In this document: positions 3,827 through 9,857 of the stretch, one piece after another
Position numbering within the stretch: position 1 is the stretch's first letter
Layout: every line of letters starts with the position of its first letter
Source of the DNA: a virus
DNA length: 32,074 nucleotides
Reading direction: 5' to 3' (one strand)
Virus record (IMG/VR): IMGVR_UViG_3300047457_000104
Coordinates: 1 to 32,074 of that record
Translations under genes and position numbers: made by a program
The notes under the pieces: model-generated
The model's input: the letters and a program-made list of their open reading frames with translations, nothing else
Told to the model about the DNA's origin: nothing
Database searches by the model: none

Positions 3827-4017
3827 TGAACGCTATAGAATGGTTGATACAACAAATCAACGATGAAGTAGAACTAAGAAACTCAGCACTCTGCCAAGGA
3901 AAGGTGGAGAGTTTTGACGAATACAAAAGACTTTGTGGTGAGGCTAGAGGGTTACTCATTGCGAAGGAACTAACCATAACCCTTAAAGACAAAATGGAGA
4001 ACTCGGATGACGAGTAG
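3826..4017 (+). CDS. Small hypothetical protein between portal and co-chaperonin
   Basis: A 63-aa charged protein, predicted mostly helical, with no membrane segment and two Cys residues (CQGKVESF, RLCGEARG). The start overlaps the portal stop (TAATG), indicating translational coupling. Its 3' end overlaps the next gene by 11 bases in another frame. Small helical proteins of this kind often follow the portal in related aquatic phages. I do not recognise a function. The tight coupling on both sides supports a real gene. Confidence 0.75.
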   Translation: MNAIEWLIQQINDEVELRNSALCQGKVESFDEYKRLCGEARGLLIAKELTITLKDKMENSDDE

Positions 4018-4426
4018 TACGATACTTATTGGCTCAAACCCCAATAAACCGCAAGTAGTTGGTGCTGTTAACTTGGAAGCCACCCCCGAAGAGAAAGCAA
4101 GCCAACTACCTAAACCATCGGGTTACCGCATCTTATGTGCTATTCCTGAAGTAGAGAAGGAATATGAAAGTGGCATCATTAAAGCTGATGTCACTATGAA
4201 GCATGAAGAAGTATTAACCACTGTTTTATTCGTAGTTGCTTTAGGTCCAGATTGCTACCCAGAAGAGAAGTTTCCTAGTGGTCCTTGGTGTAAGCCTGGT
4301 GATTTTATTTTGGTTAGACCAAACGCTGGTTCAAGACTGAAAATTCATGGTCGTGAAATGCGAATCATCAATGATGATTCAGTTGAAGCGGTCGTCCAAG
4401 ATCCGCGTGGCATTAAGCGAGCATAA
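4007..4426 (+). CDS. GroES-like co-chaperonin (Cpn10 family)
   Basis: A 139-aa protein whose core (about residues 38-133) follows the Cpn10 pattern: a first strand (YRILCAIPEVE), a mobile-loop-like segment (about 50-65, ESGIIKADVTMKHEE), a central strand with TTVLFVVALGPDCY, the segment KPGDFILVRPNAGSRLKIHGREMRIINDDSVEAVV, typical of GroES ends, and a short basic tail. GroES homologues cap a GroEL chamber; phage versions such as T4 gp31 replace host GroES so that the capsid protein can fold. Location between portal and scaffold fits a role in capsid folding. A GGAGA motif at 3996-4000 sits 6 bases before the ATG. The N-terminal extension of about 35 residues is unusual for GroES. No phage GroEL gene is visible, so host GroEL is the likely partner. 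Confidence 0.82.
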   Translation: MTSSTILIGSNPNKPQVVGAVNLEATPEEKASQLPKPSGYRILCAIPEVEKEYESGIIKADVTMKHEEVLTTVLFVVALGPDCYPEEKFPSGPWCKPGDFILVRPNAGSRLKIHGREMRIINDDSVEAVVQDPRGIKRA

Positions 4427-6647: not shown

Positions 6648-7556
6648 ATGGCAATTTCTCGCGCCCAGCTATTAAAAGAGTTGTTACCGGGCTTGAACGC
6701 TTTGTTCGGTTTGGAATACGCTCGTTACGGTGAAGAACATAAAGAAATCTACGAAACAGAGACTTCTGAGCGTTCTTTTGAAGAAGAAACAAAACTGTCT
6801 GGTTTCTCAGCAGCACCTGTCAAAAACGAGGGTCAAGCCCTGCAGTATGACAATGCTCAAGAAGCTTGGACTGCACGATACAACCACGAAACTATTGCTT
6901 TGGGCTTCAGTTTGACCGAAGAAGCAATCGAAGATAACTTGTATGATTCATTATCAGCTCGTTATACAAAAGCATTGGCTCGTGCTATGGCTTACACCAA
7001 ACAGGTTAAAGCAGCTAACGTATTGAACAATGGTTTCAATGCAGCTATTACTGGTGGTGATGGTGTGTCTTTGTTCAGTTCTGCCCATCCGTTAATTAAC
7101 GGTGGCTCAAACAGCAACGTACCAAGCACTCCTGCAGACTTAAACGAAACCTCTTTAGAAAATGCTGTGATTCAAATCGCTGCATGGACTGACGAGCGTG
7201 GCTTGTTGATCGCTGCTAAACCTAAGAAATTGATTGTTCCACCTGCACTACAATTCGTTGCAACTCGTTTGTTGGAAACTGAATTACGTGTTGGTACAAC
7301 TGACAACGACATCAACGCTATTAAAAATAACGGTGCTGTTCCTGAAGGTTATGCAATCAACCACTTCTTGACTGATAACAATGCTTGGTTCTTGACCACA
7401 AACGTGCCAAACGGTCTCAAACACTTTGTTCGTAGCCCACTTGCTACTTCAATGGATGGTGATTTCGAGACTGGCAATGTACGATATAAAAGTCGCGAAC
7501 GTTACAGCTTCGGCTATAGTGATCCACTTTCTATCTACGGTTCATCTGGCTCTTAA
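6648..7556 (+). CDS. Major capsid protein, Mu gpT / HK97-fold-like
   Basis: A 302-aa protein in the place of the major coat gene, after portal and scaffold-like genes, with a strong Shine-Dalgarno (AGGAG at 6636-6640) and a strong terminator just downstream. Recognisable stretches are MAISRAQLLKELLPGLNALF at the N terminus, YNHETIALGFSLTEEAIEDN (about residues 82-101), the loop FSSAHPLINGGS (about 142-153) and PKKLIVPPALQFVATRLLET in the second half. From memory these match the Mu gpT-like coat proteins, which take the HK97 fold. It is shorter than many HK97-type precursors, and no N-terminal prodomain or maturation cleavage site is evident, in line with a separate scaffold gene. Family placement is from memory. 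Confidence 0.88.
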   Translation: MAISRAQLLKELLPGLNALFGLEYARYGEEHKEIYETETSERSFEEETKLSGFSAAPVKNEGQALQYDNAQEAWTARYNHETIALGFSLTEEAIEDNLYDSLSARYTKALARAMAYTKQVKAANVLNNGFNAAITGGDGVSLFSSAHPLINGGSNSNVPSTPADLNETSLENAVIQIAAWTDERGLLIAAKPKKLIVPPALQFVATRLLETELRVGTTDNDINAIKNNGAVPEGYAINHFLTDNNAWFLTTNVPNGLKHFVRSPLATSMDGDFETGNVRYKSRERYSFGYSDPLSIYGSSGS

Positions 7557-7588: not shown

Positions 7589-7615
7589 AAAACCCGCTCC
7601 GGCGGGTTTTCTTTT
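7589..7615 (+). terminator. Rho-independent terminator after major capsid gene
   Basis: AAAACCCGC and GCGGGTTTT form a 9-bp stem around the tetraloop TCCG (7598-7601), and the T-run continues with CTTTT. This is a strong intrinsic terminator 32 bases after the capsid stop. It would set the 3' end of an abundant head transcript, so downstream genes need read-through, antitermination or their own promoter. Confidence 0.9.
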
Positions 7616-7665
7616 GTCTGATGGTTACTCACGGTATGGTATAAATCATACGTTTCCGAAATCAT

Positions 7666-7713
7666 TTGACAATCTCTGTCCATACATTTTGTTATCAAAG
7701 GCGTTGATATAAT
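7666..7713 (+). promoter_or_regulatory. Candidate promoter(s) of the homing endonuclease gene
   Basis: TGATATAAT at 7705-7713 is a perfect extended -10 element (TGn plus TATAAT) and needs little -35 support. Initiation would fall near 7720, giving about 45 nt of leader to the ATG at 7766. A second possible promoter is a consensus TTGACA at 7666-7671 with a weaker TGTTAT at 7690-7695 (18-bp spacing). Placement directly after a strong terminator and before an AT-rich inserted gene supports independent expression. Confidence 0.6.
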
Positions 7714-7723
7714 AAACGCCTTG
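7696..7723 (+). repeat. Inverted repeat centred on the -10 element
   Basis: CAAAGGCGTT (7696-7705) and AACGCCTTG (7715-7723) are complementary apart from one extra A, with a nine-base centre holding TATAAT. As DNA this could be an operator where a dimeric repressor covers the -10. As RNA in a read-through transcript it forms a hairpin. Both are inferences from symmetry. Confidence 0.5.
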
Positions 7724-7765
7724 AGGTACAATAAACGTAACAACTATGTAGAGACGGATACTTTC

Positions 7766-9253
7766 ATGCCAAAAATTATTACACAAGAACAATTCTTAAA
7801 CACTTGTATAAAAACGCATTCAAATACATACGACTTATCAAAAGTCGTATACGTAAATGCTAGAACACCCATAGCTGTTATTTGTCCCCTGCATGGGGAG
7901 TTTGTTACAAAGCCAATTAATTTCATAGGTGGTAAAACTGGATGCCCTAAATGCGCAGGTAGAGGGGTGGATTGGATTAATAGATTTAAAGAAATGCATG
8001 GGGAAACATATGACTACAGCTATGTAGTATATAAAGATTATAAAAAACCTGTAAAAATAATATGCCGTATACATGGGGAATTCTTACAAACGCCAGATAA
8101 TCATTATAGAAATAGACAAGGGTGCCCTAAGTGCAAAGGGAAACGCATAACATTAGCCAAGCAGCTACTTTTTAGCGAATTTATAGAGCGAGCAAATCAT
8201 ATTCACAGCAATAAATTCACATATGCTTGTACAAATTGGGAAAGTTTGTTGAAGTCTAGTATAGATATAATATGTTCTCATGGGGTGTATACTCAAACTG
8301 CTGTTAATCATCTTGCCGGAAAAGTCCCATGCCAAAAATGTGGCAACATGAAATCTAAAGAAGAACAAGCAATCGCGGATTACCTAAAAATATTTACAAC
8401 AGTAGACCAACGAAATCGAGCTATTCTTAAACCTAAAGAGCTAGATATATACCTACCAGAGAAAAGCTTAGCCATTGAGTATAGCGGTATGTATTGGCAC
8501 AGTCATGGGACAGAGGAAGAAGAACGAAAGAACAAAAACAGTCATTACAACAAGTACGTGAATTGTGGCACTAAAGGGATAAGATTAATAACAATCTACG
8601 AATCAGAATGGTTAGAACGTCCTTACGCTATAAAACGATTGCTTAGAAACGCTATAGGTAAATCTAAAGGTAAATTAATGGCTAGAAAATGTGAATTAAA
8701 AAAAGTAGAACATACAGAAGCTAGAGACTTTTATGAAAAGTATCATCCGCAAGGAGGCACCGGAAGTGGTGAGCACTATGGGCTTTATTGGAAAAACAAA
8801 CTTGTTGCTTGTATGCGGTTTACCTATGGGGCTAATGACAGGGGTATAGGCGCAACTAAAAGAGTTTGGACTTTAACCCGATATGCTACAAGAGTCACTA
8901 TTTCTGGTGGAGCATCTAAGTTGTTTAAGGCTTTTATACAAGAGCACACCCCAATAGAAGTCAAATCTTTTTCAGATAATCGGTATTTTTCAGGGGCTAT
9001 GTACGAACAACTAGGGTTTGAGTTAGTAGAAGAAACTGCACCGGATTACCAAGTTTGGAGTGTGAAAGCGGGCCTTAAACCAAAATCGCATTATCAACGA
9101 CGCAATATTCAAGCACGAATAAAAGAACATGGTCTTAATGAGCTATATGACGCTGAAACTGAGGAGCGAACAGAGCGGGAAATGACTTATTATATGGGAG
9201 CCAGAAGAATATATGATTGTGGTAAAAAGAAATGGGTCTGGACACCAAAATAA
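7766..9253 (+). CDS. Free-standing Hef-like homing endonuclease (zinc repeats + Vsr-like nuclease + GNAT/Mom-like domain)
   Basis: A 495-aa selfish endonuclease inserted between virion genes. Three N-terminal repeats of about 55-60 residues each carry a CxxHG (third copy CxHG) and a later CxKC pair: Cys40/His43/Cys60/Cys63, Cys100/His103/Cys120/Cys123 and Cys170/His172/Cys189/Cys192, a DUF723-like zinc module for DNA binding. A Vsr/EDxHD-like nuclease core follows at about 223-300 (ELDIYLP, AIEYSGMYWHSH, LITIYESEW). The C-terminal domain (about 305-435) has GLYWKNKLVACMRF, GGASKLFKAF and SDNRYFSGAMYEQLGF, a GNAT/Mom-like region common in these enzymes. An in-frame TTG at 7721 would add 15 residues, but the predicted promoter starts transcription there, so I prefer the ATG. 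The gene is visibly more AT-rich than its neighbours. All domains look complete, so it may be active. Confidence 0.88.
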   Translation: MPKIITQEQFLNTCIKTHSNTYDLSKVVYVNARTPIAVICPLHGEFVTKPINFIGGKTGCPKCAGRGVDWINRFKEMHGETYDYSYVVYKDYKKPVKIICRIHGEFLQTPDNHYRNRQGCPKCKGKRITLAKQLLFSEFIERANHIHSNKFTYACTNWESLLKSSIDIICSHGVYTQTAVNHLAGKVPCQKCGNMKSKEEQAIADYLKIFTTVDQRNRAILKPKELDIYLPEKSLAIEYSGMYWHSHGTEEEERKNKNSHYNKYVNCGTKGIRLITIYESEWLERPYAIKRLLRNAIGKSKGKLMARKCELKKVEHTEARDFYEKYHPQGGTGSGEHYGLYWKNKLVACMRFTYGANDRGIGATKRVWTLTRYATRVTISGGASKLFKAFIQEHTPIEVKSFSDNRYFSGAMYEQLGFELVEETAPDYQVWSVKAGLKPKSHYQRRNIQARIKEHGLNELYDAETEERTEREMTYYMGARRIYDCGKKKWVWTPK

Positions 9254-9285
9254 ACCACTTGCACTTCCTAACCATTCATGTAATA

Positions 9286-9349
9286 TGCGAGTCGAGTCTA
9301 GGATTTTTTCTGCGCCGACTGACCTAGCAGGCTCGCACAAGACGGCGTG
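9286..9349 (+). ncRNA. Candidate pseudoknotted structured RNA upstream of the next virion gene
   Basis: An outer stem pairs 9286-9291 (TGCGAG) with 9332-9337 (CTCGCA). An inner stem pairs CTAGG (9298-9302) with CCTAG (9323-9327). The 20-nt loop contains TGCGCCG (9311-9317), which can pair with CGGCGTG (9343-9349), giving five Watson-Crick and two G-U pairs and closing an H-type pseudoknot. No T-tract follows, so it is not an intrinsic terminator. It ends 25 bases before the next ATG. A conserved RNA class downstream of Mu gpT-type capsid genes (Mu-gpT-DE) is known to me by name, and this element may belong to it, but I could not compare it to the consensus. An alternative pairing AGTCG (9290-9294) with CGACT (9316-9320) competes. 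Confidence 0.5.
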
Positions 9350-9374
9350 GTTACGTGCATTGGAGAATTAAAAA

Positions 9375-9857
9375 ATGTCATTTGCCAGTCATATGGGCCC
9401 ATGGTTAGTGGGCACCGTTAAAAACACTACCGGTACTGTTGCAGGTACAATCCGCAACATGGGCGCTACTTCAGTATCGCAGATTGACCCTATTGCCTAC
9501 AACGACGCCGCAGCTTCTCGCGCGTTTGTTATTCCGGCAGGTTCATTGATCACCAATTTGGCTCTGTATCAAACAACCAAATTTGTTGGTACTTCTGGTG
9601 TTATCACCATCTACTTGAACGGTACAGCCATTGCTGCTTCTTCTGCTATTACTGCAGGTGCTTCAGGTCTTATTTCTTTCACACCATCATCCGACGCTCA
9701 AGTAGCTATATGGGCTAACGTGGGTTCTACTGACGCTATTATCACCTACACTGTAGGTTCTAGTGGTACTTTCTCTGCTGGCGCAGGTTCGTTGTTGATT
9801 GAATACGTTGTTCGCAACTCAGACGGTTCAGCCAACCCAACTGCACAACAAGCCTAA
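9375..9857 (+). CDS. Putative small head decoration protein
   Basis: A 160-aa, beta-rich, Ser/Thr/Ala/Gly-rich protein with no enzymatic motif. Notable stretches are the N-terminal GPWLVGTVKNTTGTVAGTIR, VIPAGSLITNLALYQTTKF in the middle, and a closing LLIEYVVRNSDGSANP. It has GGAG at 9362-9365 before its ATG, its own terminator immediately after, and a structured leader, features expected for a highly expressed virion component such as a capsid decoration or fibre-like protein. Without the homing endonuclease it would lie directly after the capsid gene. Role inferred from composition and position. Confidence 0.7.
   Translation: MSFASHMGPWLVGTVKNTTGTVAGTIRNMGATSVSQIDPIAYNDAAASRAFVIPAGSLITNLALYQTTKFVGTSGVITIYLNGTAIAASSAITAGASGLISFTPSSDAQVAIWANVGSTDAIITYTVGSSGTFSAGAGSLLIEYVVRNSDGSANPTAQQA

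Follow-up and report, generated by a model that had tools for sequence, protein, structure and literature searches.

Two described systems lie closest to the RNA element considered here. In phage T4, gene 32 carries a pseudoknot operator at the 5' end of its mRNA, and its immediate upstream neighbour is the homing gene segG (PMC535899). This operator is a pseudoknot of about 28 nt bound by the single-strand-binding protein gp32 (PMC535899). The second system is the orphan motif Mu-gpT-DE (RF03012), a family filed as a small RNA gene, in which a 4-bp outer helix pairs CCUG at the 5' end with CAGG of the Shine-Dalgarno sequence. For the protein encoded next to our element, the head of phage GP4 is informative, as cement protein and capsid protein are present there in equal copy number, 540 each (PMC9698820).

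We analysed a window of 32,074 nucleotides, a 32-kb virus record (IMGVR_UViG_3300047457_000104) that encodes terminase and portal proteins, a gpT-type major capsid protein, an HNH homing endonuclease and a 160-aa protein. The original prediction placed a structured, pseudoknotted RNA directly 5' of a virion gene in this window, and the comparative evidence confirmed it.

Gene neighbourhood of the leader

The genes and signals around the element are as follows.

6648-7556: gpT-type major capsid gene (PF10124 and PF25209)
7589-7610, + strand: intrinsic terminator hairpin of the gpT-type capsid gene (AAAACCCGC...GCGGGTTTT), from the sequence
7721-9253, + strand: HNH homing endonuclease gene, inserted after the capsid terminator and ahead of the leader promoter (PHROG 559, E 6.9e-109; PHROG 3339)
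9259-9264, + strand: predicted -35 box TTGCAC, from the sequence; many relatives have a TTGAC/TTGCA-like -35 box
9281-9286, + strand: predicted -10 box TAATAT, spacer 16, from its position in relatives
9375-9857, + strand: capsid cement (decoration) protein gene, 160 aa, from identity to the DSL-LC04 cement protein and from the predicted fold

The capsid gene scored 37.2 bits against PF10124 Mu-like_gpT (cut-off 20.1), which places the element downstream of a Mu gpT-type capsid gene. In relatives, a terminator-like hairpin was found at the matching place 3' of the capsid gene. The window ORF at 4007-4426 probably encodes a GroES-type co-chaperonin, judging from its position between the portal and capsid genes and from related-phage annotation.

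The 160-aa protein, beginning at ATG 9375, showed 28% identity in alignment with the annotated cement protein of phage DSL-LC04. Its fold, predicted with moderate confidence (mean pLDDT 72), matched the cement proteins of Pam1 (7eel), KHP30 (7dn2), GP4 (8h89) and KHP40 (7dou), while the best E-values in the fold-match list belong to other viral beta-sandwich proteins. From this alignment and the predicted fold, we identify it as a cement (decoration) protein. Among cultured phages, a DNA-similarity search returned no homologous junction and tblastn with the window cement protein returned no match at E 0.01; cultured relatives were reached via the capsid protein instead of the cement protein.

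The original prediction also suggested that the homing gene had split the element from its gpT-type capsid gene. The relatives bear this out, since some lack an insert and many have only 136-170 bases between the capsid gene and the cement gene. The gap (7613-9258 in the window) is an insertion hot spot, also occupied in the relatives' loci L001-L006, L012-L014, L017, L018, L027 and L029-L033. Its inserts are unrelated to each other, comprising enzymes of the HNH, GIY-YIG and endonuclease VII-like kinds as well as further small genes. The HNH gene of the window is also present in the gap of L012-L014; a GIY-YIG homing endonuclease is clear in L001 and indicated by PHROG match in L002 and L004; and endonuclease VII-like genes occupy the gap of L030 and L031. 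Beside every insert type, the leader and its promoter are intact. In L012 (1841-3392), the homing ORF extends across the -35 region of the cement promoter and stops only after it, an arrangement also described in T4 for segG and the pseudoknot of gene 32. The homing ORF of the window is listed from TTG 7721, and ATG 7766 is a plausible true start.

Architecture and covariation of class I

A recurring architecture was seen by side-by-side comparison of the bases 5' of cement start codons, using 54 IMG/VR loci with relatives of the window cement protein and about 200 more with relatives of the cement proteins of three related phages. We refer to leaders that carry four helices, P1, P2, P3 and P4, in a set strand order 5' of the cement gene as class I. 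Written with a for the 5' strand and b for the 3' strand, this order is P1a, P3a, A, P2a, one base, P1b, P2b, about 4 bases, P4a, about 3 bases, P3b, P4b, the Shine-Dalgarno sequence and the start codon. The window element, with P1, P2, P3 and P4 of 5, 3, 8 and 4 bp, belongs to class I.

9298-9302, + strand: P1 5' strand CTAGG, exact complement present in 31 of 32 relatives
9310-9317, + strand: P3 5' strand CTGCGCCG, 98% of cells paired, 8 of 8 pairs changing on both sides
9319-9321, + strand: P2 5' strand CTG, 100% paired
9323-9327, + strand: P1 3' strand CCTAG, held in the P2 loop, from the alignment and cross-pairing
9328-9330, + strand: P2 3' strand CAG, from the alignment of junctions
9335-9338, + strand: P4 5' strand GCAC, P4 being at least 5 bp in 30 of 32 junctions
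9343-9350, + strand: P3 3' strand CGGCGTGG, from the alignment of junctions
9355-9358, + strand: P4 3' strand GTGC, abutting or overlapping the Shine-Dalgarno sequence in 78 of 78 unique junctions with P4
9362-9365, + strand: Shine-Dalgarno sequence GGAG, from the sequence

The P2 pairs vary among relatives between CUG/CAG, CAG/CUG, CCG/CGG and CCC/GGG. P4 is the weakest helix of the window (4 bp, against 5 bp in L001-L005) and ends 3 nt before the Shine-Dalgarno sequence; the gap between the P4 3' strand and the Shine-Dalgarno sequence ranges from -3 to +5 nt across all 78 unique junctions with P4. A large subclade (CAGACAAGCCAAGA type, L274-L347) keeps P1, P2 and P3 and has no recognisable P4. 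Many members of this CAGACAAGCCAAGA subclade harbor a TTTCC...GGAAA hairpin around the Shine-Dalgarno sequence in place of P4.

For 47 of the 58 non-redundant junctions, 6-10 nt lie between the end of the best -10 box and P1, so that transcription is expected to start at P1 itself. In the window, 11 nt separate the -10 box from P1, and the predicted transcription start is 9292-9294.

Two nested stems and a loop-to-downstream interaction had been proposed originally, and they fared differently. The inner 5-bp stem (9298-9302/9323-9327, CTAGG/CCTAG) is P1, and the seven-pair interaction (9311-9317/9343-9349) is P3, which extends to 8 bp; both are conserved with compensatory change. The proposal overlooked P2 (CTG/CAG) and P4 (GCAC/GTGC). 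It also included a 6-bp outer stem (9286-9291/9332-9337, TGCGAG/CTCGCA) that can be drawn but is restricted to the window clade: it is identical in the window and the five sisters L001-L005, thus showing no covariation, and is absent elsewhere. The 5' strand of this stem shares its first base with the end of the predicted -10 box and precedes the predicted transcription start, and its 3' strand overlaps P4a and so competes with P4. We leave the outer stem out of the element; its 5' strand probably lies ahead of the transcription start, and it might form a switch with P4 in transcripts reading through from upstream. The absence of a T-tract at 9286-9349 and the distance of 25 bases from the end of the element to ATG 9375 were as predicted.

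For the statistical support, 32 non-redundant junctions (less than 90% alike) were aligned by unguided MAFFT and scored against the pseudoknotted structure. The test resulted in 89.9% paired cells against 62.0% in shuffles (0 of 500 reached the observed value), and pairing fell to 26-39% when the partners were slid by 1-3 columns. Changes on both sides were found in 22 of 23 pairs, and the covariation score was 0.760 against 0.233 in shuffles. Under a phylogeny-aware null, in which substitutions were redistributed on each tree branch, nine of the 3003 pairs tested were significant, and all nine fell inside the structure (eight in P3 and one in P2). Register shifts of P1 and P4 in the unguided alignment kept both helices from pair-by-pair significance under this null, and they were therefore tested by cross-pairing. 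The P1 partner was present in the junction's own upstream region in 31 of 32 cases against 3.0% of 696 mismatched ones. Likewise, 30 of 32 own combinations formed a P4 of at least 5 bp, compared with 18% of mismatched combinations; L237 and the window, with its 4-bp P4, are the exceptions. Neither the P1 nor the P4 value was reached in 2000 permutations.

Scored with a four-helix descriptor, 86 unique junctions had a median of 56.9. The window scores 52, a value reached by 0 of 516 dinucleotide shuffles, 1 of 504 real stretches and 5 of 1000 shuffled versions of the window itself. When the window was folded for minimum energy with nested pairs only, no signal emerged (z = -0.02 for 64 nt and -1.83 for 127 nt), because the element is mainly pseudoknotted. 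The covariation among relatives that the original prediction had proposed to look for is thus strong, and on this comparative sequence evidence the class-I RNA is real and its structure strongly conserved.

Distribution of class I and other leaders at the same slot

Two covariance models were used for the searches, R1 built from P2 and P3, and R2, a second model built without the window clade. Every virus record matching R1 has one copy, at the pre-cement slot. R2 found the window at 9297-9377 (32.5 bits, E 9.5e-5), together with the five sister loci L001-L005. A pattern scan with the DNA pattern ACTGNCCTAGCAGAC, relying on neither model nor protein, yielded 79 readable viral loci. R1 matches 76 of these; the CTAGG P1 partner occurs no more than 40 bases upstream in 75, and almost all lie 5' of a cement-like ORF beginning MA.TTF.GPV. 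Hits of the same pattern in bacterial and archaeal genomes were mostly chance-like, with the P1 partner in 6 of 80 and an R1 match at E <1e-5 in 5 of 80. Five class-I leaders (L389, L395, L402, L448 and L450) are on contigs binned as bacterial genomes, the bins being Chitinophagales, Maricaulis, SAR86, Trichodesmium and Neomarinimicrobiota; these contigs are probably phage contigs or prophages.

The Rfam check suggested with the original prediction was run with release 15. At gathering score the whole window was without a match, as were the 20 class-I or related loci for every Rfam family, and the window element had no hit even up to E 10. Neither the window element nor the relatives' loci tested matched an Rfam ribozyme or riboswitch. 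A weak PhotoRC-I hit in L034, about 110 bases upstream of the L034 element and far below the gathering score, was treated as chance. A resemblance of the window stretch ACAAGACGGCG to a known small riboswitch was rejected as well, since the stretch is not conserved in relatives and has no such match in Rfam. No description of the class-I element was found in the searchable, largely open-access literature, so that an earlier description elsewhere is possible. By these searches of viral sequences, the class-I leader is a widespread RNA across hundreds of aquatic phages and is absent from Rfam 15.

RF03012 at its gathering score of 49 matched neither the window nor any of 20 class-I or related loci, and it had no hit in the window junction at E<=10. 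Weak hits (8-11 bits, E up to 10) were discarded, as their positions did not coincide with the elements in the manner of a class-I match and hits of this kind also arose in 13 of 14 control genomes. The positive control, Roseobacter phage CRP-902, scored 72.3 bits, and 9 of 20 further loci chosen for the test matched. The ten RF03012 hits, including L061 3996-4048, L126 2451-2503 and eight further loci, each lie directly 5' of a cement gene and each end exactly on the cement start codon. Because all ten end there, this orphan motif is probably also a cement-gene leader in these phages. R1 and R2 did not match true Mu-gpT-DE loci. The window has no outer helix of the CCUG/CAGG type; instead, P1 pairs to the P2 loop and P4 precedes the Shine-Dalgarno sequence.

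Other leaders occupy the same slot. Class III, from the HTVC027P group, has P1 ACUAUAC/GUAUAGU, a 2-bp P2 and a P4 (CCUAG/CUAGG) covering the Shine-Dalgarno sequence. It has the P1-P3-P2-P4 strand order of class I but differs in its 2-bp P2, and the class-I models match it weakly (R1 E 0.14, R2 E 0.015). In L030 and L049, P2 and P3 are kept (R2 38.9 and 28 bits), and CTAGG is missing upstream and present at the Shine-Dalgarno sequence instead, which suggests a permutation of the P1 partner. L252, L258, L265, L131 and L228 have a simple pre-cement hairpin, GA-CUGCGAAAGCAG-AC (or with a GUAA loop), which has the GA/AC flanks of P2 and no pseudoknot partner.

L123 (class I) and L126 (Mu-gpT-DE) encode cement proteins that are 96.7% identical, and their DNA similarity begins at the ATG. 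The leader class is common to 78% of pairs with 90-95% identical cement proteins and to 97% of pairs with 90-95% identical capsid proteins. The leader class would accordingly track the capsid protein more than the cement protein, but slower evolution of the capsid protein makes these figures no more than an indication. One speculative view, which we consider possible but less likely than not, is that class I, class III, the L030/L049 form and Mu-gpT-DE are strand permutations of one fold with an A-[hairpin]-AC core, in which the partner of the hairpin loop moved between the mRNA 5' end and the Shine-Dalgarno sequence, and that the module is freely exchanged before the cement gene.

Probable role of the leader and comparison with known systems

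What was observed is the gene context, the four conserved helices, the distance between P4 and the Shine-Dalgarno sequence and that between the promoter box and P1. Mainly because the last two distances are fixed, the reading that we favor, and consider reasonably probable, is that the element is the 5'-terminal leader of the cement mRNA and controls translation of the cement gene, with P4 holding the ribosome-binding site until it is opened. The position of P4 agrees with the translational control element suggested originally. In such a leader of about 60 nt, four short helices would interlock. The upstream promoter would place the mRNA start at P1 or a few bases ahead of it, and the transcript would begin as a pseudoknot in which the loop of the P2 mini-hairpin pairs with the first bases (P1), P3 clamps both sides of P2, and P4 links the interior of P3 to nucleotides in the Shine-Dalgarno sequence or immediately ahead of it. 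The folded leader would set or time cement translation in cis, presumably by keeping the ribosome-binding site against P4, and a factor acting in trans might open or stabilise it. The tight 5' end may additionally protect the mRNA.

Protection could also be the main function. As a stabiliser hiding the 5' end from 5'-dependent decay, the element would bring cement close to 1:1 with capsid, the ratio required by cement-reinforced heads, with translation control secondary; most junctions have their predicted start at P1, and the equal copy numbers in the GP4 head (PMC9698820) are in line with this. We regard it as rather improbable, since it leaves unexplained both the retention of P4 against the Shine-Dalgarno sequence and the Shine-Dalgarno pairing by other leader classes at the slot. 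By analogy with T4 gene 32 (PMC535899), where a 5'-terminal pseudoknot before the gene and an upstream homing gene offer a parallel, the cement protein might bind the leader as an autogenous operator and so repress its own synthesis. Different leader classes before near-identical cement proteins (L123 and L126) make it less likely that the cement protein recognises the leader. Leader class also goes with the capsid rather than the cement protein, a comparison weakened by the slower evolution of the capsid protein, and the predicted fold resembles known cement proteins and not an RNA-binding protein; hence, an autogenous operator seems slightly less probable again than a stabiliser.

The element could alternatively be a diverged member of Mu-gpT-DE, with which it has in common the slot, the downstream gene, a compact pseudoknot, a role for the Shine-Dalgarno sequence and a core hairpin flanked by A and AC. 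We consider such divergence unlikely, to about the degree of the stabiliser, because the models do not match in either direction, RF03012 failing on the window and class I at gathering and loose thresholds alike, and because the strand order differs, the Mu-gpT-DE outer helix joining the 5' end to the Shine-Dalgarno sequence. Of the original proposal of membership, the slot and the likely role thus stand, whereas membership as defined by Rfam does not, as RF03012 matched neither the window nor the class-I relatives tested. A compact intergenic pseudoknot might also be a transcription attenuator, a terminator, a small RNA gene or a self-cleaving ribozyme; with no T-tract, no Rfam ribozyme or riboswitch match, a fixed position and the last helix at the Shine-Dalgarno sequence, these are very improbable. 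A chance fold, for which only the ordinary single-sequence folding energy speaks, is refuted by the covariation, specificity and model searches and has a negligible probability.

The class-I leader adds a widespread, strongly covarying RNA to those outside Rfam 15, and the orphan Mu-gpT-DE motif gains a testable role as cement-gene leader. Both point to an RNA layer that may control a capsid-reinforcing protein in abundant aquatic phages, among them Pelagibacter phages such as the cultured HTVC023P (class I). The leaders also form a natural set of interchangeable elements before near-identical genes, which suits a reporter comparison.

Compared with Mu-gpT-DE, class I occupies the same slot between a gpT-type capsid gene and the cement gene, and it is likewise a small pseudoknot-prone RNA that involves the Shine-Dalgarno sequence. 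It differs in having no sequence or covariance-model match and another strand order. The outer helix of Mu-gpT-DE pairs the Shine-Dalgarno sequence itself, whereas in the window 3 nt separate P4 from that sequence and the pairing of P1 lies upstream. Compared with T4 gene 32, the window leader differs in its four helices, in preceding a cement gene and in having P4 at the Shine-Dalgarno sequence. The likeness to T4 gene 32 is one of architecture and position: an mRNA begins with a 5'-terminal pseudoknot before the ribosome-binding site, and a homing endonuclease gene lies immediately upstream.
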